This document shows, piece by piece, positions 12,595 to 54,142 of a DNA stretch of 64,000 nt (positions are counted from its first letter, which is position 1; each line of letters opens with the position of its first letter). The notes beneath the pieces were generated by a model. The model was given only the letters and a program-made list of their open reading frames with translations. It did no database searches and was not told the origin of the DNA. Source of the DNA: Artocarpus heterophyllus (lineage: Eukaryota; Streptophyta; Magnoliopsida; Rosales; Moraceae). Both the position numbers and the translations under genes were made by a program. The stretch is taken from NCBI GenBank assembly GCA_025403435.1, contig CM046345.1:14513930-14577929 (forward strand), given 5' to 3'.

Positions 12595-15500
12595 GGTAAT
12601 GACTGAAAAAATCTAAAAATTAAAAAGTATGATTAATTAAAAATTTTTACATAATTATTCAGCTAAGTACTTGAGGAAGTACAAGTATATAATTTATTAA
12701 CACACAAATTCAAAGGTTTTAATAGCTATAAGCCTTAGAAATAAATAATGTTATGAATGCAATGCACAAAATTATGTGCTTTATTTATGAAACATGTAAC
12801 AATGTAATGTTATGATAGTATACTTAAATAATTAAAAATAATTATTTAATGTGTTAAATTAAAAGTTTATGATTTAATAATGTCATGTATGAGCCAAAGT
12901 AGTGATAGTTATAAGAATCTCAATTAGAATATTTAAATTGAGATTATATGATTAAAAAGAATTTTTGACTTTGTATTATTATACAGAATTTCTATACGAA
13001 GCCAGTTCAGGTCAATATGTAATCAATAACTTAATACCATAATTAAGAATTGGTAAGCGTAAAGTTTACATATGCAAAATCGATCTCGATATTTATGAAA
13101 TCACAATGCATGACAAGGATTTTCTAAGTCGTAAGAATTAATAAAAATTTAGAAATTTACGATGTCTTATAAGTACACAGTAAATTACCTACAAGTGTAA
13201 ATAACTGTGTGAAACTTATAATAATAGTAAATTATTATTATTATTATTATTATTATGAAAGAACGTTAATGAAGTTCACAAACATTTCATGAGCCTTTAA
13301 GGTAAATGCAAAATCACAAACGGGTAAATTACAATCCGTACAGTGATTAAGGAAAGTTTAGAAACATCTATAGATTGGATGTGCACCTATAAACAAATTT
13401 TTACTAAAAATAGTTTGGGTTATGCTCGTAAAGCACGAAATTGTGCTAAGTCTAGAATTTGATTAAGTTGACTTATAGATGGTCAATTCACAAAAAAATA
13501 AAATAAAATAAAAAATATATAAATATATATAATAAACTATTATAAATTTCAACTATTATTTCTATGACAAAACCAAAAGTTTATGATACGAAAATTTGTG
13601 TAAATTATGATTATCATTTTTATGGATAAAAAATTATGTTTATGATTTGTTCTAATATCAAGTTTAAAAACATAGTTCTTAAAAGAAGAGATTTACGATA
13701 GGAAATATATGTTTTATTTACTAATTAATGTTTTAAAAATTTTAAAATTTGCGAAAGATTATTTTGATCAAGAAAACAAATTTTAAGTTTTAATCAAAGT
13801 TCTTAAATACAAAATATTATCTTTAACAAATAAATACATGTCTGGTGAAATTAGTAAATCAACGATTTTAAAGACAATGTTGTCAATGTTTATGATGTCA
13901 GAATAATCCATATAGTGTGAATTAATTTATGGAAATTATTTCATGACCGTATGAAAATTTTAATAAGGCAATGATACAATAAGAGATTAGAGCTTATGAT
14001 TTTTTTTTAAAAGAACAAGAATTTTACAGTTTAAAGAGTACAGTTATGGTTATAGAAATTTTAAGTTTACAGATCAAGGATTTGATCAACTCGACCACGA
14101 TACAGTATAGAAATCAAAGACCAACAGTAGTGTCTATAAATGCATGCAAATGCAGCAAAAAAAAAAAAAAAATAAATCAGCCAATCAAATCAGCTCTCAC
14201 ACACTCTCTACTTTTTCTCTCTACTCTCTCTCCCCTCAAACTCTAGTCAAGATTCTGACCATCATTTTCGACACCTCTTGCACCAATGGAAAGATCTCAA
14301 CGAGTTGAGTCTAACGGTGTGTTGTGCCACCCACAACAGCCCCAAAGGAAGCCACACGTGCCTGTCAAAGTGGCAGGAAAACCCAAAATCTTTTAATGAG
14401 ATATCTTCGCCGTTCGGCATCGTGATGAGTAGAACATGATCCAAGTTTGGTTGCACCTCAACAGCTGCCGGAATGCTCCACCCATCTAGCCCTCTTCGCC
14501 GCCACCGTGCCACCATTGACCTCACCATTCTAGGTGGAGTTGAGGCACACCGTCTGTGCCAATAGCCTCAAACCACCATAGGGAATCTTTCCCCCCAATC
14601 AATTGCAGCGAGCCATGGCTACACGACGGAGATTGGAGAGCACCACCGCCAACTGTCATGTGGGAGATTGATCTCACCATTCCTAACCAAATTGTGCGAA
14701 ATTAAAGGCACCAAATCATTCAGAGGGGGCAGAGGAAGAAAACCCATGCCTCAATTACTTGAAATTGCTGTCGTTCGTCGAACAACGAAGTCACTGTCAC
14801 CGCTTGCAATCCGTCACCACAATTCCAATGTTTTCAACTGTGTTGAGTAGCTCCACCTTAGGGAAAATGCTCAAAAACGAGTGAGTAGCAAAACTCCTTG
14901 ACGAATTTTGGACCACCATCGTCAGAGAATCTAGATCGGAGCTCCTCCATTTCTATCGATGATAGACTTCACGATTAGGGTAGTTAGAGATGGAAATTTG
15001 TGAAATTGACACTGCCATTAGACTCAGAAGGGTCAAATTAGTGGGGGTAGGTCCGAGCTTGGCTGCCAACAGAGCCCGATCGACGCCGGTCAAAGTCGGT
15101 CAATGGTCGGTCAACGATGACCTTGGATTTTTATGATTCGAACCTCCAATTGATGATCCGAGACTGCCTTTTGACTCGTTTTGATGCTTCAAATGTGATG
15201 GTGTCCTCCGTTCGAGCTAATTTTACTCCGATGAAAATTGTATGATACCGAATGCATGCGAATCGAGGTGACTTAAACTGTAGTAACAGAGTCCAGAATA
15301 GTATTTTCAACAATAATAAATCTCTGTGGAGCATTCCTAGCCATCCACAGTCGCTCAAGGACCACTGTCAAGGATGCTTCACAGACTATACATACAACAA
15401 AATACAACTGACCCGCTCAGTTTAGAGTCCAGGTAAGTAGGAATCTCGCCTACAGTATGAATAGTTTTAAAATAAACTATTTTATATGTTTTCATAAAAA

Positions 15501-17140
15501 TTTATGAAAAAACATTATCAGTGATTTGTCACACTGTGTTATGATATGATGTGTTCTCATGTTATGATATTATGATTTATTATGTTTATGCCATGCCATG
15601 TCATGTATGTTATGATTATGTCATGATCAATATGTGATATACGTAATATTTAAATCATATTGTTCAATCACCTTCAAGTTGTGCATGATTATGATTTATG
15701 GTTTATGATTTACGTAAGTGTGATGCTATGTAGTGATAAGTCATACTTCATACACACAATAAGACAAGTGAAACTTAAGGACAAGTTAAAGGTGTAATAG
15801 CAACCTCTCGACCCACAGAGAGGCTTAAATGCAAATTATGATTTTGGTGTTGTTGGGGACCTCGCAAACCTTAACTTTCTAAGAATCGTGCGCAACTGGT
15901 GCAATCACTCGAGCCCAAATTAATAAGATAAGTTATTAGCTTAAATAATGAAGCATAAATCAAGTTGATAAGCAAGCATAAAATGTTCATGCATATTTTT
16001 GATTAAATGATATTTAAATATGGTTTGCGAGGCTAATTTCCTACTTGCTGAGTGAAAGCTCATTTAGTATGTTCATACTGTAGCTAAGAAAACCTATCAG
16101 CCACATTTGTTGGGTAGTGGTAAGCGGTGGACGAATGGTGAAGATGAAAATAGATACTGCTCACGCAATGTAACATTTCTGCAGTTTAGGTTACAAAATT
16201 ATGCATGTTTTTAATTTATGAAATTATGTATGTCTTTAGTTTATAAAAGTTATGTGCATGTAAATAGTATATAAAATTACGTAATTATGTTTTAAAAACC
16301 AAGGGTGTAATCATAAGACCTTGGACCATAGAGTTTTAAGGTTTAAAATGTTACGATAGACAATGCAACAAATAAACGACAATGATCAAGTAAGAAAATT
16401 ATAAGGTTATGTAGAATTGAAAATAATTATTGGAATTTTACGTTTAAATAAGAAATGATTTTATGAATATGTTTTATAAATTCATTAATATGAAAGTTTA
16501 GATGATTATGCTTTGAGAAATTATTATGTTGGATTCAAGTGAACGAGTTATAAGTAATTATTATTATGATAAGTTTTGAAAAGGTTAATTTTTTTTTTTA
16601 AGAAATCAATATATTATTTTTAAGATATTAAAATATAAGTGAAATATATAAATAATTTTTAAGGAATTTTTAAAGAGAATTTAATATGATTTTATTCCAT
16701 CATTTAATTCAAAATTGTTTTTGAATTAGTTATATTTAAACTAAGGAATGTTTTAAAAGAAGTAATTCTTAAATAACTATCTTTATGTTTAAAAGAAAAG
16801 TTTTAAAGAATCTTCATTATTTTATGTTTTAAGAGATTAAGGTTATCAGGTATGCAAAGGATTAAGTTTTTAGAAATTATGATTATGTTAAAACGCAATG
16901 ATTAGTATTACGTTATTATCACGTTTGAGAAATTAATGTTATTATGTTAGATTTACGAAATTAAGTTTTGAAAAATGATTAATATTTCTTTCAAGGTTAT
17001 ATGTTAAGAATTCTTTATCAATAACAAGAATTCATTTTAGAAAAAAAAATTTTCCAAAATTTCTGTACTCATGATAAGTTAAGTTTAAGTTTACGAATAC
17101 GTTTAAGTTAAGTAACGACCACGTAGGTAGGGTCGTTACA
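12595..17140 (+). mobile_element. Large solo LTR A (4546 bp) inside an antisense LTR
   Basis: Bounded by ATCGT duplications. It begins GGTAATGACTGAAAA, apparently TGTAATGAC with the first T changed to G, and ends GGGTCGTTACA. No second LTR, PBS, gag or pol lies inside, so it is read as a solo LTR; a short non-autonomous element is the alternative. The region 14200-15432 is less AT-rich and resembles 20930-22180 of LTR B at many places, for example CCACCCACAACAGCC against CCACCCAAATAGCCG. From 15433 it holds the intron-like module described separately. An ATT microsatellite is at 13217-13255. Confidence 0.8.
15433..16083 (+). other. Predicted LTR intron A with paired ends
   Basis: Donor CCAG/GTAAGT at 15433; acceptor ACTGTAG ending 16083; 651 bp. 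CTACAGTATGAA (15450-15461) is the exact reverse complement of TTCATACTGTAG (16072-16083), which contains the acceptor. An inner pair AGTTGTGCA (15677-15685) and TGCGCAACT (15889-15897) forms with one G-T wobble. A hairpin TGAGTGAAAGCTCA is at 16049-16062. Splicing is inferred from sequence only. Confidence 0.5.
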
Positions 17141-17145
17141 ATCGT
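17141..17145. repeat. Target-site duplication ATCGT, right
   Basis: Pairs with 12590-12594 around LTR A. Confidence 0.8.
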
Positions 17146-17835
17146 ACTGGCTATATGCGATATTCAGGAAGTCATGGTTTGCAAGGTCCTCAACGACACC
17201 GAGATCATAAACTGTATTGAGCTGTATTGAAGCCTCTTCGTAAGTCAAGAGGTTGGTGTGACACCCTTAACATGTCTTATTAATTTCACTTATCTTATTG
17301 TGTATATGCAGTATGACATATTACTATATAGCATCACAATTTCATAGATCATAAATCATAAATTGCAAACATGCTTAACTTGAAAATGATTAAACAATAT
17401 AATTTATTATTGCATACATCACATATTGATCATGACATAATCACTACATAATATGATATGACAGGACATAAACATAATAAATCATAACTATATCATAATA
17501 TAACAACATATCATAACACAATATGGTGTGACAAATCACTGATTATACTATAGGTGAGATTCCTACTTACTTGGATCTGAGCTAAGCGGTTCTAGTTGTA
17601 TCTTGTCAGTCTTATAGCCTCGGAAGCATCTTCAATAGGGGTCCTAGGGCGACTGTGAATGGCTATGAATACTTCATGAAGGTCATACATTGCTGGAAAC
17701 ATCATATTGAGCTCCGTTATTTCGATCTACATTGCCTCGATATACGTGCAATTGGTATTGGATGATTCTTAACGAAGTGAAATTAGATCGAATGGAAGGC
17801 ACCGTCGCGTCTGGAATCTTGAAACAAGTAGGGAG
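17146..17835 (-). repeat. Large LTR C, 5' part, minus strand
   Basis: Its reverse complement follows LTR A from about 15160 to 15880 (and LTR B from about 21915), including TCCATTCGATCTAATTTCAC against TCCGTTCGAGCTAATTTTAC and the donor-like CCAAGTAAGTAGGAATCTC (minus strand, GT at 17570-17569). The LTR stops at 17835, where a copia LTR begins, so its 5' third is missing. Confidence 0.75.
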
Positions 17836-20687: not shown

Positions 20688-22849
20688 TGTAACACCCGAG
20701 ATTTTTAATGCATTAAAAATGCATTAAATTAAAGATTATATTAAGACAAAGTACAATTAAAGGAAAATACTGTATAATAAGATGGAAAATTATACAGTGT
20801 TAGAGCAATGCAGTATAAGAATTGAATTGTGTGGACCACAATTTCTTTTTATACTTTTATAAAAAGAAAAGAAAAAAAAAAGAAAAATCAAAAATTCAAA
20901 GCAAATTCGAGACTTTCTCTCTCCTCTTTCTCTCTCTAGATTTTCTCTCTCTCTCCTCAAATCTCGTTTGAGATTCCGGCGTTATTTTTCGACACCTCCT
21001 ATACCAGTGAGAAGCTCTCGTTGAGCTGAGTCCAACGAGGTGTCGTGCCACCCAAATAGCCGCCGGAGGAGGGCTCACGCGCCGCCCAAAGTGGCGGCGA
21101 AACCCATAATTTTTCGACGTCGTTTCTCGGCCGTCCGACCACCAATCGACGTGATTTTGGTGTCTATGGACTCAGTGTGAGGAGAGGAACAAGATGGCAC
21201 CAAATTTTCAGCTCAATTTTGGCTGGAAAGGCTTCACCGGAGCTGCCCCGTCGCCGCCGTCGCAGCCGTCGTGCCTGGTGGCGGTGTGGCACACCGCCGG
21301 TGCCAAAATGATCAGAGGGCGACGGCGAGCAAGACCCCTCGGTCAATTGCTCCATTCCGCCGCCCCTCGCCGGAGAACGAAGGCACCCGCCACCGTCGAC
21401 GTGGGTGAGTTTGGGTTGGCCATTTTAGGCCGTTTTGTGCCAAATTGAAGGCACAAACACGTTCAGAGGACCGAGAGGAAGCTTCCCAACACCTCAATTT
21501 TGGGGAAACACCGCGAGAAGGCGGAGAACCAAGGTCCACCGTGGAGCGCCGCCGTGAGGAGGTGGAGCCGCCGTTCCACGTGGTGTTGAGCTGCCCCACC
21601 ATAGGGGAAATGCTCAGAGGGTCACGGGGAAGAAAACGCCCAAGGCAATTTTGGGCTACCGTCGCCGGAGGACCGAGATCAGAGCCGCCGGTGTTAGCCG
21701 AGAAATCCATCCTCGATTGGAGCAGATGGAGGCCGAATTGGGTGAAATTGACCCCACCAATCGACTCAGGAGGGTCGAATTAGGGGGGGTAGGCTCGAGC
21801 TCAGCCCTCAACGGAGCCAACCGCCGCCGGTCAACTGCCGGTCAACGGCGGTCAACGGCCGGTCAAAGGGCAAAATGAGATTTTGTGATCCGGACCTCCG
21901 ATCGAAGATCCGAGACCGCCTCCCGACTCGTTTCGACGCTCTGAACGCAATGGTGACCTCCGTTCGAGCTAATTCCACTCCGATGAAAATCGTCTGGTAC
22001 CGACTGCACGCGGATCGAGGCGATTCAAACAGCAATATCGGAGTCCAGAATGATGTTTTCAAGAATGAATGATCTCCAGGAAGCATTCCTAGCCATTTAT
22101 GGTCGCTCGAGGAGCACTGCAGAGGATGCTTCACATACTGTAGATGCAGCGAGATACAACTGGATCTGCTTAGCTTGGAGTTCAAGTAAGTAGGAATCTC
22201 GCATGCAGTTTGAACTGTTTTAGAATAAACTGTTTTAGATGCTTTCATAGAAATTTATGAAATGCATGATCAGTGATTGTTACACTGTTTTATGTAAGAA
22301 TAGGTTTTATAACGTTATAAGGTGACAAAAAAACCCGTTAAGGGTAAAATCGTCATTTTTAAGGAAACGGCTAGAACGGAGTCGAACACTCCGATTTAGC
22401 ATAATGTTATTAGATGGAAAATGTTCCGTGATACGTTAAGTAACGTAACGGTCATGTGAGATCAAGATTTAACGAGGGATGTTTTAAGTAAACGAGAGGT
22501 AACCGATGGGTTACAAAGTTAAAAGGAAAAGTAACCCCGGTGGGTTACAAGGCTAATTGAAGGAAATGTAAACTGACAGTTTATAAGGTTGAGTAAGAGA
22601 ATGGTAGACCGATAATATACCAAGTTATGAATAAGGAAAGAATGATTAATGTTTACGTTTTATTATCAATCGAGTGGATTGATAATAAAGAAAGTTAATT
22701 AATGAGTCGGCTGTCGTTTGATCAGGACACAGAGGCCGACCAATGGAAGGAAAAGGAACGAGAAAGGAACGGAATAGAGAACGCTAGAGCATAGTTTGGG
22801 TAAGTTTCAAACCTCACCTACAGCATGAAGTAAATGATTTTTAAATGCT

Positions 22850-23390
22850 TATTTATATGTTTGCAAATGTGTTTGCAAAGTGTTAAGCAAGTTGTTTTTA
22901 AAGTATGTTTGCATTTATTATGCAAGAAGTTTTAAAGTTCAAGAAAAAGATTTGCAATGAATTTGCAATCGTTATGCTAAAGGTTTATTTGCATATTGAT
23001 ATGCATAATGTTATTTAAAAGTTTAAGTTATGATTTTCAAAGTATTGAAAGTATGTTTTGCATTATGACAATGCATAATGTTTTATAGTTTAAGTTAAAG
23101 GTTTAATGATGCATTTACTATGCAATAAGTTGCATTTGTTGTGCAATAAATTTAAGAAAAAAAAAAGTTATAGTTCGCAAAATGTGTTTGCATTTTATGA
23201 TGTATTTATTAAGCAATATGTTGCAATTGTTATGCAATGAGTGTTAGAATGCAAGTTATGATTTGCAAAATGTGTTTACATTTTATGTTGCATTTGTTAT
23301 GCAATGAGTTGCATTTATTATGCAATTGGTTTTATAGTATAAGCTATGAATTGCAAGTGTATTGCATATGATGTGATTGCATTTGAAATG
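22850..23390 (+). repeat. Tandem array of TTTGCAT/ATGCAAT words
   Basis: Imperfect repeats of about 20-30 bp built on TTTGCATTTGTTATGCAAT, each with an inverted GCAT/ATGC pair. Absent from the corresponding part of LTR A. Confidence 0.65.
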
Positions 23391-23749
23391 CTCACTAAAG
23401 TTAATAAGAAGGTAACGTATAAGGTAAACAGAAAGTGTCGTACCAGCCTCTTTGTTATGAGGTAATGAAAGTAAAATTAAAGTTTAACCTCCTAAAGGTG
23501 AGGTACAAGACCTCAATGTTTGATGGTCTCAAGTCTTCCACAAGGGAAGCATCATGTTTATGATCTCATGATTAATGAGTTGGTACGAACACTAAAGTAA
23601 AGTAAGGAAAAGGAAGGTTATAAGATAAAGAAAGTAAGGAACAAGAATAAAGGTTGAGAAAGAAATGAATATTTAAGTTTATAGAACGTTCATAAAATGC
23701 TCATAATTGAAGTTAATAATTGAGCATAAATGGAGTCATGCATTCTGAT

Positions 23750-24170
23750 GTTACTTGAATGCTTTTTTATGAAATGTTTATATGTTATGTTTATGGAAAA
23801 CATTCTGAAAAATGTTTACGATAAATGTTTATGAATAACGTTTTCATGTTTTCAAGAAACGGTTTATGAACGACGTTTTAAGATAAACGTTCAAGAAATG
23901 TTTTAAGAGAAAGGTTTTACATTAAATGTTTATGAAAAACATTTCATGTTTGCAAGAAAAGGTTTACGAATGACGTTTTAAGAAAAACGTTTTAGAAATG
24001 TTTTATGAAAAAGGTTTTCAAAAATGTTCTATGAAAAACGTTTATGTAAAACGTTTCAGAAATGTTTTATGGAAAACGTTTATGAAAAACGTTTTCAGAA
24101 AGGTTTATGGGAAACGTTCATGAAGAACGTTTCAAGAGAAAAGTTTTCATGAGAAAAGTTTTTAAAGCAT
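23750..24170 (+). repeat. Tandem array of AAACGTTT words
   Basis: Imperfect units of about 24-30 bp such as TTTATGAAAAACGTTTCAG. The core AAACGTTT is self-complementary. Not found in LTR A. Confidence 0.65.
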
Positions 24171-24720
24171 GTTTAAATGCTTTGTGAGATTATGTTTGAA
24201 CTTGCTGAGCGAAAGCTCATTAAAAGTTTTTCATGCTGTAGGTAATTTATGGGTGACCAATAGGACCCGTTAGAAGAGCTGGGTGCTGCGGAGGACAGAT
24301 GCGAAGATTTGGGTATGGATACCATCACTGTTTGCTTCCGCTATGTAAAGAAAATGTTTTCCATTGTTTAATGTTGTGTTTTCGAAGTTTAAAGAAAATC
24401 AGAGTTTTAAGAATTGCATTCAAAGTTTTAAAATACAGTTTATGGATTGTTTTATGTAATTATAAAGTAAAGTTTTAAACTATGATTTAATAAATGTTTC
24501 TTATTAAGTTTTAAGAAACGTTTTGAAATGATTTTAAGGGCAAGTGTTGAGCGATGTCTCAACTTGAATGCGACAGAGGTCGCGTCAGTTTTTAAAGAAC
24601 GTTTAAGGAAAGAAAAAAAAAATTTTACTACAGTATTTTCTTACTAAGTAAGTAAGATTACTGTTTAGTCAACGATGATTATGAAAGAAAAGTGACTGCC
24701 CGAAAAGGCGGGTCGTCACA

Positions 24721-30050: not shown

Positions 30051-30051
30051 G

Positions 30052-36314: not shown

Positions 36315-37016
36315 TCAATCATGGTTTTCAGTAATGCCCATTCTTTCAACATGTTCATTAAATGTCTTTGGTAGCAACCCTTTTGTCAATGGATCCACAA
36401 TCATGAGATTTGTGCTAATGTGTTCGATTGACACTCTTTGTTTATGAACTTCGTCTTTGATGGCAAAGTATTTCAATTCCATATGTTTAGCACCTTTTGA
36501 ATACTTGTCGTTTTTGAAGAAGACTACTGCGGAATTATCACAATAAATTTTCAACGGCTTAGCAATGCTGTCGACAATTTTAAGTCTTGAAACAAAGTTC
36601 CACAGCCATAATCCATGAACAGTGGCCTCAAAGCATGCCACAAACTCAGCTTCTATAGTCAATGCAGCGATGACAGATTGCTTTGCGCTCTTCCATGAGA
36701 CTGCTTCTCCAGCTAAAAGGAACAAGTAGCCAAATGTGGATTTTCTTGTATCAATACATCAAGCATAATCTGAATCTAAATATCCTATCATCTTAAGATG
36801 ATCGGATCTTCTATAAGTAAGCATGTGACCTTCTGTTCCTTGCAAATATCTTAACACCTTCTTGGTAGCTTTCCAATTATCCAATCCCGGATTACTTTGA
36901 TATCTACCCAGCATTCCAACGGCAAAACTGATGTTTGGCTTAGTACAAGTCCGAGCATACATCAAGTTACCAACGATAGAAGCACACAGAATCTGTTCCA
37001 TTTCTTTGCATTCCAA
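36315..37016 (-). pseudogene. Copia 1 RT C-terminal part and RNase H remnant
   Basis: 36759-37016 holds the connection region (NLMYARTCTKPNISFAVGML, LRYLQGTEGHMLTYRRSD, GYLDSDYA). 36315-36725 holds RNase H-like sequence ([50 protein letters not shown]). In-frame stops lie between them and at 37016. Confidence 0.85.
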
Positions 37017-37901
37017 TTAATTCTTTAAGCATTGCATAAGGCTCAATTTATCTCCTTTCTGAATAGGAACGACACTTGCAGTACACTTTTCCATTTTAAA
37101 TCTCTTTGGAACTTTGTTAATATATGCTTTTTGAGAATATCCTAATAATCCCTGTGATCTATCACAGAATATTACAATCCCAATCATGTAGGATGCCTCA
37201 CCTATATCTTTCATTTCAAACTTCTCAGAAATGAATTTCTTAGTCTCATGTAATAAGCCAAGATCATTTGTAGCAAGCAAAATTTCATCAACATACAAAA
37301 TCAAAATTATAAACTTGCTCCCACTTACCTTCAGATATATACATTGATCAACAATGTTCTCCTTAAATCTAAAGGAAGTGATGGTATCTTTGAACTTAAG
37401 ATACCATTGTTGGGAAGCTTGTTTAAGTCCGTATAATCATTTCTTGAGTTTACACACCATGTGTTCCTTTCCTTTAACAACAAAACCGTCGAGTTGGTCC
37501 ATATAGACCTCTTTCTCTAAATTCCCATTCAAAAAGGTGGTTTCCACATCCATTTGGTAAAGCTCTAAATCATAATGAGCTACTAATGTCATGATAATTC
37601 TAAATGAGTCCTTTTTAGAAATAGGAGAAAAGGTTTCTTTGTAGTCAACACCGTCTTTCTGAGTGAAACCTTTGGCAACAAGTCTAGCTTTATGCCGTTT
37701 GATATTGCCTTTAAAGTCACACTTGGTCTTAAAAACCCACTTACACCCGACTCTTTTACAACCTTCAGGCAATTCAATAAGATCCCAGACTTTATTGTGA
37801 TCCATTGATTTCAACACTTCTTTCATGGTGTCTAACCACTTAATAGAATCATTACTTTCCATGGCTTGTGAAAATGAAAATGAATCCTCATCAATTCCCA
37901 A
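37017..37901 (-). pseudogene. Copia 1 reverse transcriptase remnant
   Basis: 37437-37901: CKWVFKTKCDFKGNIKRHKA, ARLVAKGFTQKDGVDYKETF, YQMDVETTFLNGNLEKEVYM. A stop separates it from 37017-37304 (YVDEILLATND). The catalytic YVDD box reads YVDE, so the second aspartate is lost. Inactive. Confidence 0.9.
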
Positions 37902-38336
37902 GTCAAGTTTTGACGTAGATAAACCACATAATCATCAAGGATAGCAGATCTTCTTTGCCTTTCAGATCTTCTTAATACCACCTCTTGTGGTTCATCCACT
38001 ATGGGTTCTTTGGTAACAGCTTCATCATGGGGTGTTTCATCATTCATTTGTTGTTCTTGTAGGTCGTCTAAGTGTTCAACAACTGTGGAAACAACAACTT
38101 AAGAAGAAGTTTTAGGCAAAGGAATCTCCACCCTAGCCTCTTGAATTTCTACTTTATGTAGTTCCATAATCCCACTGAATTCACCATTTTCAATGAACCT
38201 CGCATTTCCAGTTTCAACAATCCTCGTACTATGGCCAGGACAATAAAATCTAAACCCTTTAGATTTTTCTAGATAACCATTGAAGAAACCACTAGTTGTT
38301 CTTGAATCCAGTTTCTTTCATGTGGGTTATAAATTC

Positions 38337-39053
38337 TTATTTCTGCTGGGCAACATAAATATATCGGTGCCTTAAATTAGGTTTCCTTCCTGTCCACAAT
38401 TTAAACGGAGTCCGTGGAACTGCCTTACTAGGAACCTTGTTTAACAAATACATGGTAGTTTTTAGAGCATACATCCACAATGATAAGGGTAAAGAAGAAT
38501 AGCTTAACATACTCCTAATCATATCTATTAAAGTACGATTACGCCTTTCTGTAACACCATTTTGTTTTGATGTACTTGGCGTTGTGTATTGAGCACATAT
38601 GCCATGCTTTTCAAGAAATTTAGCAAATGGACTAGGGCATTGTCCAATTTTATCGTACCTTTTATAATATTCACCACCTCTATCATACCTGACAATTTTT
38701 ACCTTTCTATCTAATTGTCTTTCAACCTCAGCAATAAATACCTCTAAGGCATTTACTGATTGAGATTTCTCATGCAACAAATAGATATATCCATAACGTG
38801 AAAAGTCATCAATAAAGGAAATAAAATACTTTTCTCCACCAAAAGATGAAACATCAAAAGGCCCACATATGTTGGTATGTACAAGTTCAAAGAGCTGTGT
38901 GCTTCTTGTGGCCTTTTTCTTAATTGTGTGTTTTTCCTTAATACAATCCACACAAATACCAAGATCAATAAAATCCAAATGAAGAAGGATTTTATTCTTT
39001 ACCAATCTTTGTATTCTTTCTTTGGATATATAACCTAAACGTTTATGCCACAA
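38337..39053 (-). pseudogene. Copia 1 integrase remnant
   Basis: An open stretch of 238 codons with the gag-pre-integrase [13 protein letters not shown] and the core: HTNICGPF where the family has HTD, so the first catalytic Asp is Asn; [26 protein letters not shown] with the second Asp; [11 protein letters not shown] with the catalytic Glu. The open frame survives but the missing first Asp predicts an inactive enzyme. Confidence 0.9.
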
Positions 39054-39720
39054 CCACTAAACTACGTTTAGTACCAACATTATGATACAAAGTCAATAGA
39101 GTCTTAGCAAAAAGATTATCAAGCTTTAATTTATATAAACCATCACAAAGAAGACCAGAACCAATAAAATGATTGTGCTTAAACAAACTGCAACATCCAT
39201 TTCCAAACTTATAAGAATATCCAGCTGCATCAAATTTTGAAAAAGAAATTAAATTACGAGAAACAGAAAAAAGATAAAAAGTTTGAAAAAGATCTAAATG
39301 ATGTTCAATGTCTAAAATAAAACGATAAGTTCCGATGGCTTCAACTGGAGCTTTGAATAGGTTCCCCATAGCATAAATTGTTTATTTGCGTTTTATGGTT
39401 TTGGGCGTAAGGAATCCTTGCATCGTATTTGAAACATAAGTGGTACAACCAGAATCAATCCATCAAGTATTATGAGGAACTTCTGCCAAATTCGATTTGA
39501 AACATATGAAAGCACTAGGCTTACATTTACTTTCGAACCATGTCTTACGTTTTAGGCAGTCTTTCTTGTAGTGTCCAGGCTTTCCATAGAAATGGCACAC
39601 ATCTTTCTTTTGTTCCTTCTTGTGGATTTGGGCAGATGATGCTTTAACCTTCAGTGGTCCTTTGTTGCCCTTTTGATTCTTCTTTCTTGGTTTCTTTTGG
39701 GCTCCTAGTTAACCCATGAG
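39043..39720 (-). pseudogene. Copia 1 protease and zinc-knuckle region
   Basis: WIDSGCTTYVSNTMQGF (about 39420-39460) is the copia aspartic protease site, preceded by a stop. The knuckle CHFYGKPGHYKKDC near 39550-39600 has Tyr in place of the second Cys, so it could not bind zinc normally. 39043-39369 continues the protease to pre-integrase region. Confidence 0.8.
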
Positions 39721-39882
39721 ATTAATTGAGCGAGTTTCTTACTTCTTCAGTCTTGTTTGCTCTTGAATAAGCAAAGTTTGTAATTTTGTCACATTTCATT
39801 TATCCTTTATTGTATTGTAATTTATTTGGAATGGACCATACTGAGGAGGCAAGGAGTTCATAATGAATGTCACAAGGAAACT

Positions 39883-40330
39883 TTAATCCACTTTCATTCT
39901 CATGGATCCTGATCTTGCTACTATGTTTATTATCTTAGTGACATGCTCATGCATGGTATGAGAACCATCAAACTTCATGGTGGTTAACATACCCATCGGT
40001 GTCCCAGCAACTGACTTATCAGTAGTGTCAAATTGAAACATATTTTCCACAAATTCCATAAATTTCTTTGCACTGTCAGTTTTTGAAATCATTGACTTAA
40101 TGTTCTTTGCTATTATCATCCGCGTGAACATTAAGCTTAGTTTGTTTGATCTTTCCTAAGCATCATAGAAAGATCTCTGTTCAGCACTACTAGTGTCAGT
40201 AATAGCAGCGGGCTTGTCATGTAGGAGTGCCAAATCAAGATTCAAAACACCTAAGTGAAACTAAACTTGTTCAGACCATTCAGGAAAGTTAAGCCCATTG
40301 AACTTCATAATAGGTGAAACTTGCAGATGA
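39883..40330 (-). pseudogene. Copia 1 gag remnant
   Basis: 39883-40131 encodes a UBN2-type gag segment (AKKFMEFVENMFQFDTTDKS, MHEHVTKIINIVARSGSM). Upstream, gag-like sequence continues in broken frames to about 40330. Confidence 0.7.
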
Positions 40331-41620
40331 AGAGAAACAAGAACAAATCTGCAAATAGATAGAATGCTCACACATTAATGCTTTGAGTCATAAAAAACAC
40401 ATAATACAGATTCAAATAACATTCACATAGGCATAAATGAACATTGAAGTTCTCCTTTGGGTGATCTAACAATGTATGACAATAAACATAATTGATGCTT
40501 ATTATTGTCATTTTAAATTTCACATAATGGGCAATTAAATACATTCCAATTAGATATGCTTGCAATCTTTGGATGTACTAAATATATCTAACCAAATATA
40601 TCAATTAACCACTGTTATGTTTATGATTATAAAATAACTAATCAACCTTTGGGTAATCTTTAAATATTTTATAACCAATGAACTTCAACATACCCATTAC
40701 AAAGAAAATATATCATCATATCATCTTATTATTAGCATCACATAATCATGAGTAATTGAATTTTATTTAATTTGATATCTATGGAAACATTCTACTTTGG
40801 CCACTTTGGTGACTAATAAATTATTCATAATATAGACATCAAATTAAATAATAATATTATACAACTTAATAAACAGTAAACTTTAAGCTTTTGACCCCTT
40901 TATTTCAATTTAATTTAATTTTAAAACTCTAATTTAATGCTTTAGAAATTTTTTTTTGTCAAAGTCAAAGGTCAACAATCAAAGTCAAAGTCAACGAGTT
41001 CAGGTCAAGACTGATTTGGGTCAGATTTAACCTGGATCCATTACCCAGTCCAGCTTTGGGCCTTTAAACTTTAATGCCCATTTCCTTCTTTAATGGACTT
41101 AAGGTCCAAGAGTTCTCTTTAGGTTGTCCTAGTAATGGGCTAAACAAGGAAAACAAACTTTGACTTGCTAATAGCTTAATTGTTTACTAGAAACGTGCAG
41201 TCATAATTCCATTCAACATGGGGAATAAATCCTATGATTTTAGCCATTATCTGCACTTACTTTTATAACCGTCCTCTCCCTTTTTTTTGCAGTATCTTAT
41301 TTTATTTTGTTTTGAACTTCAAACGAAATTCTTTTCAAAGAAAAAAAAAAAATCAAAACTTTGACTATGATAACCGTATTCATTTAACCGTAATTAATGT
41401 TTTGATTTTTTTGAAGAACCGTTCAACGCTTGAAAAAAAAAAAAAACAACTGGACGAGAGTCTTCTCATTACTTGAATATATAGACATACAGAGAAGGAA
41501 ACTTTGAAGCCTTTGATCATCAAATTGGTAGCATTCAACGGAAGATTTAAAAATATTTTTCAATAATTCAATCAAAGAAAAAATTAATAATCATTAATGG
41601 AAAATCATATGATCTAAAAC
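40331..41620 (-). other. Copia 1 leader between PBS and gag
   Basis: AT-rich. It contains a run of AAAGTCAA words near 40965-41010 and A or T homopolymers at 41340 and 41430. No gene seen. Confidence 0.5.
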
Positions 41621-41638
41621 CTATTGCTCGGATACCAC
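41621..41638 (-). other. Primer-binding site of copia element 1
   Basis: On the minus strand TGGTATCCGAGCAATAGG follows the 5' LTR; TGGTATCNGAGC is the initiator methionine tRNA type. Confidence 0.8.
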
Positions 41639-41639
41639 A

Positions 41640-42074
41640 TCTTACTAAAATTTCTTAATTATGCAAAACAAATCCTAATATTGTATAAACATAATGTCAA
41701 GATCTTTGAATTATATGATTTTTATATAACAATAATTAGTGAAGAAGACATACGTTAATCCATGATGAAGACTTGATGAAAATGATTGAACACAAGAGGC
41801 CTTTGAAGAAAACTATGTTTCTCTCTCTTAACCCCTCTTCGTTTTGACAAAATAAGAAAAATATATCGTTAATGGGTAGAGAGAGGACCAGTTTCTATTA
41901 GGATCTTTTTATAACCCACAGACCATCCATGTGTGCAATAAATAGAAATATCTTCCATATGACCAATATGATTTTGACGCCTAATAATTATTAAATCATA
42001 ATTATTGTTCTTTAAATAAATAAAAGAACTAATAAGAATATAACACATGGGCCACAATTAAAAAATATTTAACA
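41640..42074 (-). repeat. 5' LTR of copia element 1
   Basis: Pairs with 35474-35910 over its whole length; the inner edge has changed from TGTTAGG to TCTTACT. Confidence 0.88.
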
Positions 42075-42079
42075 TCATA

Positions 42080-46623: not shown

Positions 46624-46654
<31 letters not shown>

Positions 46655-46737: not shown

Positions 46738-46742
46738 TCGAC
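46738..46742. repeat. Target-site duplication TCGAC, left
   Basis: Same five bases at 55128-55132. Confidence 0.85.
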
Positions 46743-47263
46743 TGTGAACGTGTGTCTAATTGAAGTTGTTATGAGGTGGTTTTATTAGAAGAGTAATACT
46801 GTACAAGCCTGCAGCTTGTGAAGATTCACTCTTGATGATGTGTCAACCTCTCATTGGACTTGGCTGGAGTTGTGATATGCTTTGTTAATACAAGATTACA
46901 CTTGTTTGATGTATATCTGAGAAGAGAAAAAAAAAAAAAGGATTCGAGGGTTCATTCTAAGCTAGTGGGTTTCTTTTCTCTGGGCATGTAGAAAGTTCTA
47001 GGCTCCTTCTTGTAAAAGGGTGAGAGGAGTGAAATATTCCTTAGGCAAATTCCTTGAAACAGAGAAAGAGAGTACTGTATATGAGTGCTGTAACATTGAG
47101 TGTGTAATTCTTATTATTAGTGGATTCAACTAGGGCTAATGATGCCCTGACTTAGATGTAGGATCATTAAAGATCCGAACCAAGTATAAATCGCCTATGT
47201 TGTTCATGTTGTTTTGTTGAAGATCTTGTTTTTTCGTGTTTCTTTTGAGATTTATTCCTCACA
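46743..47263 (+). repeat. 5' LTR of copia element 2
   Basis: 521 bp, TGTGAACGTG to ATTCCTCACA. Pairs with 54610-55127. Confidence 0.92.
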
Positions 47264-47266
47264 AAT

Positions 47267-47282
47267 TGGTATCAGAGCTGGG
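47267..47282 (+). other. Primer-binding site of copia element 2
   Basis: TGGTATCAGAGCTGGG, initiator methionine tRNA type, 3 nt after the LTR. Confidence 0.9.
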
Positions 47283-47391
47283 ATCGTTCTAGCAAGAAGG
47301 AGATTCTTGGAGCTGGTTTGAAGTCGCTGTTCCTCGTCTACCCTCTCTCTGATCGACACTTTACCATCGTCAAATCTCCAATTAACGAAAG

Positions 47392-47960
47392 ATGACGACA
47401 TCCAAATATGAAATCGAGAAGTTCGATGGGAAAAACGACTTCAATCTATGGAGGGAGAAAATGATTGCACATCTCGACAATCTTGGACTGGATGAAGCTC
47501 TAAAGGGAGAATCAAAGATTCCTAACTCCGTGTAGAACAAAGATGAGATCCTAAAAAGGCTAGAAATACCATTGTGTTGAGTCTAAGTGATCAGATACTT
47601 AGGAAGGTTATTAAAGAAAAAATCGCCTGTGGTATGTGGAACAAGTTAGAACAGCTATATATGACCAAATCTCTTCCCAACCGAATCTATCTGAAACAAC
47701 GATTCTATGGTTTTAGAATGGATGAGAATAACTCCATAGATGAAAATATAGATGAGTTTACTAAATTGTTATCAGATTTGGAAAATCTAGAAGTTAAGAT
47801 TGAAGAAGAAGATCAGGCAATTTTTTTTGTTGAATTCACTGCCTAGGAAGTATGAACAATTAAGAGACACACTTAAGTATGGAAGAGAAACTCTTTCCCT
47901 TGAAGAAGTTATGGGGGCTGCCTACTCAAAAGAATTGGACTTAAGGGCCAATTTCAAGTA
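47392..47960 (+). pseudogene. Copia 2 gag, broken
   Basis: Begins MTTSKYEIEKFDGKNDFNLW at 47392, the usual start of copia gag. A TAG stop follows at about 47534 and the frame shifts near 47565. The middle is open at 47574-47846 (MWNKLEQLYMTKSLPNRIYL). Confidence 0.88.
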
Positions 47961-47967
47961 ATCAAGA

Positions 47968-48675
47968 TTGAATGCTGAGGGACTGAATGTCAGAGGCAGA
48001 ACAATGGAGAGAAAAGATCAACCTAGCAAAAACAAGAATTTTTCAAGATCAAAGTCAAGATCTAGAAAAACATGTTGGGTTTGTAAGAAGGACGGTCATT
48101 TTAGGAGAAATTGTTCTCAAAGAAAGATAAATTCTCCTAAAATTGATCAAATCGGTCCTGAAGAATCAACCAACGTCTCACACATTTTTGAAACTGTGGA
48201 TGTTCTTGCTGTCACTAGCAATGATCCAAATGATGAATGGATTTTAGATTCTGGGTGCACTTTTCACATGACACCCATAAAAGATTGGTTCTTGGACTAT
48301 ACAGAGGTGTCCAAAGGAAGAGTCTTGATGGGCAACAACGTGTCCTATAAAATTCATGGAATAGGATCTGTGAGACTAAAAATGTGGGATGGCACAGTCA
48401 AGCTTATAACAGATGTCAGGCATATACTAGACTTAAAGAGAAACTTGATCTCTCTTGGAAGTCTGGATTTGAGTGGTTATTCTTACAAGACTGAAAAGGG
48501 TGTCTTAAAGGTGGTAAAAGGTTCCATGGTGGTAATGAAAGGAATTCTAATGCAGGGCTTGTATGTACTACAAGGGGCAACAATGATTGGAGAGGTTGCA
48601 GTCTCTGTAACGAAGACTGATAAGACAATTTTGTGGCACAGAAGACTTGGCCACATGAGCATCAAAGGTCTATAG
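47968..48675 (+). pseudogene. Copia 2 zinc knuckle, protease and pre-integrase
   Basis: CWVCKKDGHFRRNC is an intact CCHC knuckle (about residues 36-49). WILDSGCTFHMTP is the aspartic protease site. LWHRRLGHMSIKGL begins the gag-pre-integrase domain and ends at a TAG that replaces what is usually a glutamine codon. Confidence 0.9.
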
Positions 48676-48678
48676 GAA

Positions 48679-50148
48679 TTGAGCAAGCAAGGTTTTCTAG
48701 ATCAAAAGCACATCACTAATCTTGAGTTTTTTGAAAGTTGTATACTTGGAAAGGCACAAAGGTTGAGTTTTGCAAATGCTGTTCACAAGACAAAATCTAT
48801 CCTAGGCTACATACATTCAGATTTACGGGGCTCACCAAAGGTACCTATGTCTTTATCAAATTGTCAATACTTTATTATTTTTCTAGATGATTTTTCTAGA
48901 AAGGTGTGGATTTATTTTTTAAAGACCAAAGATGAGGCTTTTAGTAAGATTGTTGAATGGAAAAACTTGATTGAAAATCAAACCAATAAGAAAATTGAGA
49001 GGTTACGAACAGATAATGGTTTAGAGTTTTACAGTAATCAATTCAAATTATACTGTTATGAAAATGGTATATCTAGACATCATACTTGCACTGATACACC
49101 ACAACAAAACGGTTTAGCTGAACGTATGAATAAGACCATTATGAATAAAGTAAGATGTATGCTTGATGAATCTGGCTTGCCCAAGAAATTTTGGGCAGAG
49201 GCTGCCATTACTGCATGTTATTTAATCAATAGATCACCTCATGTTGCTTTAAATTTCATGGTTCTTGATGAGAAATGGTCAAATGAGAAACCTGATTATA
49301 AACACCTTAGAACATTTGGCTGTATAGCTTATGTGCATGTGAAACAGGGTAAACTGAACCCGAGGGCCAAGAAGGGAATTTTCCTTGGTTACTCGTATGG
49401 TGTAAAAGGTTATAAAATATGGCTGTTAGAAGAGCAAAAATGTGTCATAAGCAGAGATATAACTTTCAATGAAAATGCGTTTTATAAAACTAACATTAAT
49501 TCTCAAGGAATAGCCAGCTTTGAACAAGCTGAGCAGACTCCAATATCACAGGTTGAAGTTCTTGATAGGTCTACAGGTTCATTTGAAGAAGGTGGAGCTC
49601 CTGTACAAGGTCAAGAACCCATTATATCAGGTGACCCTGATCTTGAGGAGACATACCAAGAAATAACCCAAGACGATGAAGAAACAGCTCAATCAGGATC
49701 AGATGATCAACTCAGAGACTACCTGTTGACTCGGGATAGAACAAGAAGACAAATAAAACCTCCTTCAAGGTTTGCTATAGCAGATTTAATTGCTTTTGCC
49801 TTGAGTGTAGCTGATGGGGTTGATTTGAATAAGCCTGCAAATTATTCTGAGGCAAAGAAAAGCATAAACTGGTTACGATGGAAGGTTGCTATGGAGGAAG
49901 AGATGAGGTTGTTGCTCAAAAATAAAACTTGGATACTGGTTGATAGACCTAAAGGACAAAAGTTGATTGGCTACAAATGGGTTTTCAAAAAGAAACCGGG
50001 CATCCCTGGGGTTAAGGAAGCTAGATTTAAAGCACGACTGGTGGCAAAAGGATATTCTCAGGTTGAAGGAGTAGACTTTCATGAGGTGTTCTCACCCGTG
50101 GTGAAACACACCTCAATCATAGTCATATTGGCACTAACTGCAATTTAG
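48679..50148 (+). pseudogene. Copia 2 integrase and start of reverse transcriptase
   Basis: A 489-codon frame. The integrase keeps all three catalytic positions: Asp in HSDLRGSP, Asp in RTDNGLEF and Glu in NGLAERMN. The C-terminal RTFGCIAYVHVKQGKLNPRA motif and the linker follow. RT starts at about codon 395 (WKVAMEEEMRLLLKNKTW, GYKWVFKKK, ARLVAKGYSQVEGVDF) and ends at a TAG at 50146. Confidence 0.92.
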
Positions 50149-51011
50149 GATTTGGAATTGGAGCAACTTGATGTCAAGACTGCATTCCTGCATGGAACTC
50201 TGGATGAGAAAATTTATATGTGCCAGCTTGAGGGATTTGTTAATAAGGAGAGTCCACACAAGTTTGCCTACTACAAAGATCTTTGTATGGACTAAAACAG
50301 TCCCTCAGGCAATGGCACCACAGGTTTGATCAGTTCATGCTTGCAAAAGGGTTTTCAAGATCAAAATATGACAGCTGCGTTTATTTGGCAAAATTGAATG
50401 ATATGTCCTTTATCTACCTTTTGATTTATGTTGATGATATGCTTATAGCATGTAAGCATAGGTCAGAAATTGAAAAACTAAAGGTGGAGCTGAGTTCTGA
50501 GTTTGAAATGAAGGATCTTGGATCAGCAAAGAGGATACTTGGCATGGATATTACAAGAGATAGGATACATGGCAAATTAACCTCATCTCAAACAAGTTAT
50601 TTGAATAAGGTAATTGAGGTGTTTGGTATGAAACAAGCCAAAGTTGTTAATACACCTATTGGAGCTAATTTCAAACTCATCCCAGTAAAGGAGCAAGAAT
50701 CAAAATTGGAGGAAGTTTATATGAAACAAGTACCATACTCAAATGCTGTTGGGAGTCTCATGTATGCAATGGTCTCAACTAGACCAGATATTGCATATGG
50801 AGTTAGCTTAGTTAGTAGATTCATGAGCAAACCAGGCAGAGGACATTGGCAGGCTGTAAAATGGCTTCTAAGGTACCTGAAAGGCTCTGTAAATTTGAAG
50901 CTGACATACACTAGGAGTGTTGATAACAACTGTGAAGTAAAGGGGTATTGTGACTCTGACTTTGCTGGGCATTTAGATAAAAGGAGATCATTGACAGGTT
51001 ATGTTTTCACC
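50149..51011 (+). pseudogene. Copia 2 reverse transcriptase, second part
   Basis: DVKTAFLHGTLDEKIYM just after the stop, a frameshift near 50270, then an open frame from 50283: MYGLKQSLRQWHHRF, an intact YVDDMLIA active-site box, EMKDLGSAKRILGM and GYCDSDFAGHLDKRRSLTGY. The reading frame runs into the nested LTR at 51017. Confidence 0.92.
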
Positions 51012-51016
51012 TTAGG
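51012..51016. repeat. Target-site duplication TTAGG, left
   Basis: Same five bases at 54143-54147; the copia RNase H frame resumes there. Confidence 0.88.
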
Positions 51017-51825
51017 TGAAACGCCCCTTAATTCGGACGTTACAGATGTCGTTACATACATAGGTTCATACTTGCATAAACTTTAAACATATAAATAATA
51101 TCAAACTTAATCAGTATTATTGATTTGAAAAGTACTTAAACCTACATAACCAGGATCCATTCATACCTTCAATTTTTTTTTTAAACTTATCATTGTTTTA
51201 GAATAACAAGGTTTAACTTATTCCATATCATAATTTATTCAATTATACTTAAATTAATCATGAACTTACTTAATAATATAGGTATATCAAGTTGTAAAAA
51301 TCAGAACTTAACAAAACATCACAACATACCACATTAAACATCAAATCATTCAAAACTTACTTACTCCTACAGTTCGGCAGGCCGAACATGATCGACAGGA
51401 AGGAGTTCCCTCAACCGGCAGGCCGGCAGAGGCCTTGCAATTTGGACTAAAAATTTATCCATGTTTAGCAGGCCGGAAAATGTGATCGGCAGGCCGAACT
51501 TCTGGACTTCGGCAGGCCGGCCAAAAAGTTCGGCAGGCCGTCCGAGAGCAAATTCCTTTAGAAAACTTAAATATTAAAAACAAGCCAACTTTTTGTAAAA
51601 TATAGCGGAAGTTCGTAATTCATCAAAAATGATAAAATAACTTATAAAACCATAATATAAGTATTCTTAAAACTTAACATAAAATATATGTTCGAATTAT
51701 ATAACTTAATTAAAAAAAAAACATAAGAGCATTCTTCTTGGCGTGCTTCTGGTTACAATTCATCGTGCATATGCTCACACGCCTTCCCATGTCCTCCTCC
51801 TAGTCCATGATTTTCTTACCCTTAT

Positions 51826-51904
51826 CTGCAACATGACATAAAACATGATTAAGCTAATGCTTAGTAAGTACATGTAATTCTCACAATTTAAAACATTTCA
51901 TAAA

Positions 51905-51937
<33 letters not shown>

Positions 51938-52330
51938 ATCATAAAAGTGCTTTAAGCACAATTTCATAGAAACATATCTTTCATTACATTGACCATTTTA
52001 AAACTTATTCCATTTTTATCTTAAGGGCCCAAGTGTTGCACCATAACATCATCATAGGCGCGCCGTCATGAGAGGAGAAGGGTAGCTAATCCCAAACCAA
52101 ATATGGCATCATAACATAACATTTCATAACATTGGGTGTGCAACACTTATTAGGTGATACATATATACATACTTTTCATACTTTAAAACATGCCATAAAC
52201 ATCATGCATAACATAAAATCATGAAAATCTTTCATAAGAAATCCTTTAAGAAAAATCATCATAAATATCCTTGTAAACATATCATCAAACCTTGAAAAAG
52301 GTGTCATGTTGCAGGTGAGAATGTACTTAC
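51826..52330 (-). other. Predicted LTR intron D with paired ends
   Basis: On the minus strand: donor AAG/GTAAGT (GT at 52330-52329), acceptor TTGCAG ending 51826, 505 bp. TGTCATGTTGCAG (52302-52314, plus strand) and CTGCAACATGACA (51826-51838) are exact reverse complements. Inner pair AAGTGTTGCAC (52031-52041) and GTGCAACACTT (52138-52148) is perfect. Hairpin TAAGCTAATGCTTA at 51850-51863. The donor word is duplicated at about 52345-52350. Confidence 0.5.
51905..51938. repeat. (CAT)n microsatellite
   Basis: About eleven uninterrupted CAT units inside the LTR D intron-like module. Confidence 0.9.
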
Positions 52331-54142
52331 CTTATCGTTAGCATACTTACCTTATCGTTAGCTTACTTAACCTTAATGTGATTTGGTGACGGTGTCGCGG
52401 TCTCGTAGTGCTCCTCTTTGAGTGTTCATGCCATTTTCTATTTTAAAGATGCAATACATTAATACGTATCATAAAATATCCATGCATATAACATTCATTC
52501 ATATACATTCATCTCATAATCCATAACCATCATCGTAAAACATGAAATTATCATCACATATATATTTTCATCACATCCATTACAATCAATAATTCATAAC
52601 CATAAACATTGTCATCACATAAACATGTTATTATGATTTTTCTTTAATTATAAAAATTACCTTAAGCATATAAAAACAAACCATATATTTTAAACATATT
52701 TATCTTTTAAATAAAACGTTTTCAAACAAATACATATATTTTAATTTAAAACTCCATACAATCATCATATTATCATGCATAAAATCATTTTATTATTATA
52801 AAATCATGTAAATACATAAAACGTTTAATAAAACAAAAATCCCAAAAACAACATTATCAAAACAGTTTTCTTATTATAATCTCATAAAAATTTCATAATC
52901 ATAAAAATAAAATACATTCATCATACATATGCATATTCTTAACAACTTTTCATGGAAACATCATTCATTACCTCTTGAATAATCATTACATTTTTCATAT
53001 ATTCAAAATTAAACAGTAACATTACTGTGAAGGGTAGAAGATAGAAATATTCTTTTTTTTTATAAAACATTCAAAAATGACATGAAACGTGAAGAAACAT
53101 CACACATAACACTCATGAGCATCATAATAGAAACACCAAAACAAAATACAATACATAGAGAGGATATTGTAGACGAATTTGAGGAGGAGAATTTCTTTTC
53201 AAAAATACTAGAAAAGCCGAATTCATACCTTGGAGTTTCTTATCAAAATCCTTGAATTTTATCCAACGAAGTAAGACTTTTTCTTTCAATATACTCAGAA
53301 AATTTTCGTGAGAGAGAGAGAAGCACTCGTGGAGAAGAGAAGAGGAAAAGAAAACAAATGAGAGAACGTCTCAGAATTTTTGAGAGAGAAAATAATAAAA
53401 AAAAGAAACGTTAAAATTTTTAACGTAATAAACATAATTGATCTGAATTCAATTCCCTTCATTAAGTCAAAAATTTTCTGACTGTTGAGGCTATTGGCGT
53501 GGAAGGAAAGAAGAGAAAGAAAAGGAAACCACAACACATCATCAATCTTACCATGTTTTGCCCATTTAAAATTGGAAACCATTTAATTTGACACAAATCA
53601 TGCAAGTCAAACCCCTTTTATTTCCTTAACTGATATAATCCTTCCATTATTATGCCAATTAATCACATTAAATCATCCAATTAATGTAATTAACTCAGCC
53701 ATAATTTTGGAAAGATTTCAACTGACTGCTCGTCAGCCGTGTTCGGCCTGCCGATTGGTTTCTTCGGCCTGCCGATCTCGGGCAAAATGTTCGGCCTGCC
53801 GATCTTAAAAGTTCGGCCTGCCGAACTGTCCTTAAATGCCATACAATAAAACATACATTCATTATTGCATCATCAATAAACATATACTTAGAATTTCACA
53901 TGAACACTAGAGCACAACGATCCCATTCATTATTGCATCATAAATAAACATATACTTAGAATTTCACATGAACACTTGAGCACAACGATCCCATGCGGTC
54001 GTCACCTGTCACAAAACTTGACATAAAAAGTTAGTAACATGCACATCACATATCATGTCATATAACTAAATTTATTACTAACATTCCTTAACAACGTTAC
54101 TAACTTAATGTGGTCCGTTACATAAAATAGGCGGGTGTTACA

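Follow-up and report, generated by a model that had tools for sequence, protein, structure and literature searches.

A covarying long-range helix joins the donor-like and acceptor-like sites of a candidate intron in long terminal repeats of Artocarpus heterophyllus

Long terminal repeats (LTRs) of retroelements in Artocarpus heterophyllus carry an intron-like module whose two ends are tied together by a long-range helix. We examined this module in a stretch of 64,000 nucleotides (nt) of assembly GCA_025403435.1 (CM046345.1, positions 14,513,930-14,577,929, forward strand), hereafter the window, and in the host genome at large. In three LTRs of the window, referred to as A, B, and D, an arm shortly past a GTAAGT donor is the exact reverse complement of a segment at a YAG acceptor. 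The exact arms, the genome-wide abundance of the units, the covariation of the arms, and a largely unrelated helix in a further family (type G) together point to a maintained long-range helix, or clamp, joining donor and acceptor, of whose existence and maintenance we are nearly certain. The GTAAGT...YAG boundaries and a branch-site-like hairpin make it appear likely that the clamp is part of a spliced intron, and a clamp that changes on both sides in step suggests that the elements control the splicing of their own RNA.

All three LTRs are solo and flanked by 5-bp target duplications. LTR A sits inside an older minus-strand LTR copy, A2. The features of the window copies are as follows.

12595-17140, plus strand: LTR A, solo, with ends GGGTCGTTACA and target duplication ATCGT on both sides
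14135-14141, plus strand: TATA-box-like TATAAAT of LTR A, with a CT-rich stretch downstream
15433-15438, plus strand: 5' splice-site-like GTAAGT of LTR A
15450-15461, plus strand: 5' arm CTACAGTATGAA of LTR A
16044-16062, plus strand: branch-site-like hairpin CTTGCTGAGTGAAAGCTCA of LTR A
16072-16083, plus strand: 3' arm TTCATACTGTAG of LTR A, ending on the acceptor AG
20688-24720, plus strand: LTR B, solo, TGTAACACCC...GGGTCGTCACA, target duplication CACAT
22186-22191, plus strand: A-homologous second donor GTAAGT of LTR B, with a decayed arm CATGCAGTTTGAAC at 22202-22215
22800-22805, plus strand: donor GTAAGT of LTR B that is paired with the exact arm
22816-22829, plus strand: 5' arm ACCTACAGCATGAA of LTR B
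24201-24219, plus strand: hairpin CTTGCTGAGCGAAAGCTCA of LTR B
24230-24243, plus strand: 3' arm TTCATGCTGTAGGT of LTR B, spanning the acceptor
51017-54142, minus strand: LTR D, solo, TGTAACACCC...GGGGCGTTTCA, target duplication CCTAA, nested in a copia element
52325-52330, minus strand: donor GTAAGT of LTR D
52302-52314, minus strand: 5' arm CTGCAACATGACA of LTR D
51850-51868, minus strand: hairpin CTTACTAAGCATTAGCTTA of LTR D
51826-51838, minus strand: 3' arm TGTCATGTTGCAG of LTR D, ending on the acceptor AG
17543-17570, minus strand: donor GTAAGT (17570) and 5' arm CCTATAGTATAA of A2, the older copy split by the LTR A insertion
12415-12427, minus strand: acceptor and 3' arm TTCATGTTGTAGG of A2

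The exact complementarity of the arms, first reported in a preliminary description of this DNA, was confirmed in the sequence at 12 nt in LTR A, 14 nt in LTR B, and 13 nt in LTR D. In all three, the 5' arm starts 16-18 nt past the donor, and the YAG lies at the end of the partner arm or within it. LTR B has two donors and one common acceptor, and the same two donors are found in a copy elsewhere in the genome (L073; genomic copies are cited here by L numbers). The split halves of A2 still form an 11-bp helix with three G-U pairs, as judged by eye from the sequence. The span was originally given as 0.5 to 1.4 kb; it is indeed variable, and we extend it to mostly 0.5-1.5 kb, with a maximum of 2.1 kb measured from the first B donor.

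Chance expectation was assessed by a scan of both strands in which each GTAAGT was tested for an arm lying +10 to +24 from it and having an exact 12-mer complement 200-2000 nt downstream. Of 39 donors in the window, 3 were positive, and these are exactly the A, B, and D pairs. Among 200 dinucleotide shuffles of the window the mean was 0.12 and the largest count 2, so that three was never reached. Relaxing the match to 11-mers brings in a fourth donor (15714) against a shuffle mean of 0.5, and with 10-mers six donors score against a mean of 1.9. The arm start at 16-18 nt and the position of the partner at the YAG were outside the scan criteria and lend support beyond the scan itself.

The module is abundant in the host genome, which was searched over 985 Mb in 334 contigs. 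The A arm CTACAGTATGAA occurs 3,423 times, compared with 158 for the reversed pattern. A 3' unit, consisting of the hairpin plus a CATRYTGYAG acceptor arm, was found at 8,063 places and a donor-plus-arm unit at 4,535 forward-strand places, with no hits for either reversed pattern; the reverse-strand figure for the donor-plus-arm unit (15,594) was set aside, as several end points were counted per donor. These thousands refer to each unit separately, and both units were checked jointly in tens of copies. By our own sorting the copies fall into six subfamilies (A, B, C, D, D2, and G), all of which have the module. Four pattern searches of viral contigs returned 0, 0, 14, and 0 stretches, the pattern giving 14 being the acceptor plus exon and not an arm, and a search of prokaryote contigs returned 25 matches, all with bacterial titles; neither set of matches was used as evidence.

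The arms covary, as the preliminary description had proposed from the three window copies. Our arm table has 35 rows with 28 distinct arm pairs and paired changes at several positions. At 11 of the 16 positions, pairing is seen in 25 or more of the 28 distinct pairs, and five of the well-paired positions show two or more Watson-Crick types, as listed here.

Arm position 4: A-T / G-C
Arm position 7: G-C / A-T / G.U
Arm position 8: T.G / C-G / T-A, with T-A in one row only, that of LTR A in the window
Arm position 13: A-T / T-A / C-G
Arm position 14: A-T / G-C / T.G / G.U

Position 15 also shows several Watson-Crick types, but it is paired in just 16 of the 28. Loop length varies from 364 to 2071 nt among the rows. 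The table was drawn from 35 first rows by dropping four chance pairings (L052 twice, L063, and L082) and two repeats (the second LTR of L073, and L075 on the minus strand, which is the same place as L051) and by adding the first donor of L073 and the D-like copies L091, L097, L108, L114, and L118. L102 was left out, its acceptor being off pattern, and L101, L115, L117, and L119 yielded no row. Sampling was biased in that most of L040-L087 were retrieved by one exact arm, and L088-L122 by the hairpin alone and partly by hand. In the D2 subgroup, copies L114 169 and L118 169 have the donor ATAAGT instead of GTAAGT, with an intact helix.

A positional join of the two units gave a comparison of each arm with its own and with foreign partners. 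It was confined to C1:1-2,577,128 and used 41 donors and 40 acceptors from the 100 rows listed per unit; a partner was found for 21 of the 41 donors, and 3 of these 21 rows span 2.4-2.7 kb and possibly have wrong partners. In the joined pairs, 277 of 294 cells pair, compared with 253.7 (standard deviation [sd], 5.1) after re-pairing. Because both patterns contain parts of the arms, the pairing level is built in and only the excess over the re-pairings counts; likewise, as the shuffles carry no correction for kinship, the result is not a probability. Independent drift of the arms had been named as the outcome that would speak against the idea, and it is not what we found, since the true pairs exceeded all 2000 re-pairings.

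These data bear on whether the arms could be a functionless by-product, an inverted duplication inherited within each family. Copies of a subfamily have common arms and hence are not independent, as such inheritance would predict. However, the A/B/C and D arms can be aligned and differ by paired changes rather than by replacement. Moreover, the D-like variants GACA/TGTC, GATA/TATC, and GATG/CATC each fit their own partner, as does the GATTAA/TTAATC pair of L102, whereas free drift would break the pairing. We regard a by-product as very improbable.

A search that was blind to the arms uncovered the same arrangement in a further family. A hairpin pattern with one loop base more than the window's own type matched 156 places, compared with 3 for the reversed pattern, and exposed other families. 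From these we took 35 places, 15 chosen for varied loops and 20 taken in the order listed, skipping six places, and sought the best helix about 150-620 nt upstream of the acceptor. At 21 of the 35, by our count, the best helix links the acceptor segment to a segment just past a donor, which is GTAAGT or GTAAGC in 15 and mutated in 6. The G type accounts for 15 of the 21 loci. Its 5' arm is CTGCATCACAAGAACTATG or near it and has little in common with the A-D arms beyond the bases that meet the acceptor, its donor-to-arm spacing is about 21 nt, and its helix reaches 19 bp (L094 pairs 19 bases, counting G-U). Most G copies, such as L107, have one C-A mismatch in the middle of the helix, where L094 has T-A and L111 has C-G.

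Inverted ends lying 0.5-2 kb apart could also mark a nested DNA transposon or miniature inverted-repeat transposable element (MITE) inserted in the LTRs. This origin we consider the least probable of those weighed here. No target duplication was seen by eye around the arms in A, B, and D, and the intron-less junction searches reported below used the splice boundaries and not the arm boundaries, at which no empty-site search was made. LTRs A and B align at donor and acceptor but not between them, and neither aligns with D. The arrangement also recurs with different arms, and its flanks are splice signals.

Matches to protein domains and to primer binding sites (PBSs) identify the carriers as Ty3/gypsy elements. 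A PBS, TGGTATCAGAGC, begins two bases past the LTR in L072; in L069, L073, and L075 it is located where the LTR ends. In the G-type copy L123 the acceptor lies 384 nt ahead of a PBS-like TTGGTATTAGAG, followed by gag, protease, and RNase H matches (gag, RVP_2, and RT_RNaseH). L125, which lies between two D-type 3' units separated by 7.7 kb, matches RVT_1, RT_RNaseH, Integrase_H2C2, and SH3_Tf2-1, and L071 matches gag, RVT_1, and Integrase_H2C2. The order gag, protease, reverse transcriptase, RNase H, and integrase was pieced together from these three copies, of which L071 and L125 were chosen by unit spacing and are tied to the LTR modules by position only. The name of the lineage, Tekay/Del chromoviruses, is a guess; no chromodomain was found in the scanned pieces, and the end of the polyprotein may fall outside L125. 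LTRs are about 4 kb long in L072, L073, and L075. With just some 1.1 kb of internal sequence each, L072 and L073 look non-autonomous. L073 is young, its LTRs being 99.45% identical over 3,848 aligned bases, and the longest open reading frame (ORF) in its LTR leader has 132 amino acids (aa).

The module lies ahead of the PBS in L072 and L073 and ahead of the PBS-like site and gag in L123, and not between protease and reverse transcriptase, where an Ogre-type intron would be. In LTR A, the TATA-like box and the CT-rich stretch downstream indicate that donor and acceptor probably lie in the R-U5 leader, given a transcription start that we infer from these signals. All six types (A, B, C, D, D2, and G) have GTAAGT...YAG boundaries, as in U2-type introns; in single copies the donor is mutated to ATAAGT, GTTAGT, or GTAAAT. 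A conserved hairpin about 20-35 nt upstream of the acceptor contains CTTAC/CTGAG and CTYAY-like sites, as seen by eye. The polypyrimidine tract before the acceptor is poor. Base composition differs among the three LTRs and does not decide the intron question; the B module is richer in AT than both flanks (0.72 versus 0.64 and 0.67-0.69), and the A and D modules are described with the counterevidence below.

Pairing strength and folding were computed for 14 introns, hand-chosen for intact modules. Their own duplexes range from -20.5 to -30.3 kcal/mol, 3.5-7.4 sd below letter shuffles, and average -24.9, compared with -16.2 for duplexes with other types. The G 5' regions bind A-D acceptors weakly (-15.1 at best). 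Folding of whole introns with 40-nt flanks predicted the clamp, with a maximum pair probability of at least 0.99, in 11 of the 14.

Several observations weigh against a clamped, spliced intron and are gathered here. The intron-less exon-exon junction of the A type was found at 0 places in the genome and that of the G type at 0 places with up to 1 mismatch. The D-type junction search gave 5 places, none precisely intron-less: two are unrelated sequences, and the other three still contain the intron, the acceptor having decayed or the copy having undergone a small deletion or a rearrangement. As these searches need near-exact ends, old copies would be missed, and they set no firm limit. Composition does not mark D as an intron (AT 0.69 versus 0.76 upstream and 0.69 downstream), and the A module is richer in AT than exon 1 (0.69 versus 0.56) but not than exon 2 (0.69-0.77). 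No convincing helix was seen at 14 of the 35 arm-blind loci, within a range of 150-620 nt in which the longer B-type spans are not visible, and 20 of the 41 donors in the positional join had no exact 3' partner. Own and foreign duplexes are not cleanly separated. The strongest other-type duplex reaches -29.2 kcal/mol (B2 arm with C acceptor, own -27.6), many swapped duplexes among A, B, and C match the own ones in strength, and some D-like 5' regions prefer the acceptor regions of A_L060 or G (D2_L091, -26.3 versus -23.6 for its own). Finally, the clamp was not predicted in 3 of the 14 folded introns (A_L060, D_L078, and D2_L091).

The failure to find precisely intron-less copies in three types means either that the RNA that is reverse transcribed is unspliced or that splicing does not occur. 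The second possibility is compatible with the helix being a structural element of the full-length unspliced leader RNA, with a role in packaging, dimerisation, ribosome shunting, or strand transfer. Such a role would suit a helix that persists while loop length is free (364-2071 nt) and that lies upstream of the PBS and gag. Yet it leaves unexplained why the arm keeps a fixed spacing from GTAAGT, 16-18 nt in types A, B, C, and D and about 21 nt in G, and why its partner lies at or over the YAG with a branch-site-like hairpin upstream. A purely structural role is, in our judgment, unlikely.

On balance we favor an intron located within the LTR, in the R-U5 leader, with a clamp that determines what share of the RNA remains unspliced. 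Many Ty3/gypsy-type LTRs would have a U2-type intron in the transcribed leader, between TATA box and PBS. A helix of 12-19 bp would form between a segment about 16-22 nt past the GTAAGT and one at or spanning the 3' splice site. The loop between them is mostly 0.5-1.5 kb long, or as much as 2.1 kb when counted from the first B donor. The clamp would bring the donor to a branch and acceptor region whose polypyrimidine tract is poor, and splicing would be limited to a fraction of the transcripts by the burial of the acceptor in the duplex. Unspliced RNA would serve as the template for reverse transcription and keep the LTR whole, while spliced RNA would be a messenger with a shorter leader. Transcription start, splicing, the two RNA pools, and the direction of the clamp's effect are all points that we infer. 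Since the copying of spliced RNA would strip the intron from the LTR, persistence of the module in thousands of places argues that the copied RNA is unspliced.

A variant of this explanation makes the clamp a repressor that hides the acceptor, so that the intron would be mostly retained and spliced only when the helix opens. Promotion and repression are inseparable by sequence. In the types examined the duplex takes in the acceptor AG together with the bases preceding it, and if splicing occurs the template must be unspliced RNA, both as a repressor would have it. The donor, however, stays outside the helix, and there would be no point in maintaining donor, acceptor, and branch-like hairpin if they were never put to use. 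We rate repression as somewhat unlikely, and return to the intron whose clamp sets the unspliced fraction. In its broadest form, which we put forward tentatively, this would be a class of LTR introns in divergent plant Ty3/gypsy families. The covarying helix, with the 3' splice site among its bases, would act as a splice switch dividing the RNA into spliced messenger and unspliced genome; it would replace a strong polypyrimidine tract and would have been rebuilt with largely unrelated arms at least once.

The preliminary description held that no LTR intron of this kind had been described, which is too broad in one respect. Simian immunodeficiency virus (SIV) and human immunodeficiency virus type 2 (HIV-2) have an intron confined to the R-U5 portion of the LTR. 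The likeness is that donor and acceptor both lie in R-U5 ahead of the PBS, and the difference is that these are vertebrate lentiviruses. We know of no covarying helix joining the ends of the SIV/HIV-2 R-U5 intron. For plants the claim stood in the literature searched: no description of an intron inside a plant LTR was recognised among the matches listed, in a literature mostly without subscription papers, and this is weak evidence of absence.

The one pertinent phrase match among those listed was an engineered lentiviral vector (PMC5542766). According to a 2025 review, introns are generally absent from plant LTR elements, with Ogre and EVADE as notable exceptions (PMC12786077). In Ogre a subset of transcripts is spliced (PMC6317226), and attempts to amplify DNA copies of spliced BARE RNA from genomic DNA did not succeed (PMC3735527). 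Ogre, BARE1, EVADE, and CRR resemble the present elements as LTR retroelements with spliced and unspliced transcripts, splicing being predicted in our case. Their introns are in the internal coding region, whereas the module described here precedes the PBS, lies within the LTR, and has a conserved long-range clamp. Human genes have conserved long-range complementary intron regions with compensatory change (PMC8052449). Those regions belong to host genes, in contrast to a mobile repeat with the acceptor within the helix and thousands of places. Folds of the AdML and HBB pre-mRNAs place 5' and 3' splice sites close together and affect splicing (PMC9977717); they are global folds of single pre-mRNAs, unlike a two-arm clamp conserved across LTR families. 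A back-spliced RNA of maize CRM1 (PMC7010299) was considered as a parallel and set aside, as it spans the protease-coding and adjacent region and not the LTR. The module bears on how LTR elements separate messenger from genomic RNA, and thousands of natural clamp variants in one genome would allow the control of splice-site choice by long-range RNA structure to be tested in plants.

The window has further repeats around these LTRs. LTRs B and D have TG..CA-type ends along with their target duplications; LTR A has the duplication and the CA end, and its first bases are GGTAATGAC. The region 4570-5446 is a partial LTR A start, 87% identical to 12597-13488, with no similarity to LTR A further downstream in a self-comparison of the window. 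The copia element that hosts LTR D (46743-55127, plus strand) has LTR pieces that are 96% identical and open stretches matching Pol_BBD, integrase, and RVT_2. A second, decayed copia element (35481-42075, minus strand) has LTR-like pieces at 35481-35911 and 41647-42075 (84%) and RVT_2/rve pieces on the minus strand. A 167-aa ORF at 8536-9039 (minus strand) matches the TIR domain (PF01582, E = 4.5e-52) and is a fragment of a TIR-type plant gene within the repeat nest.

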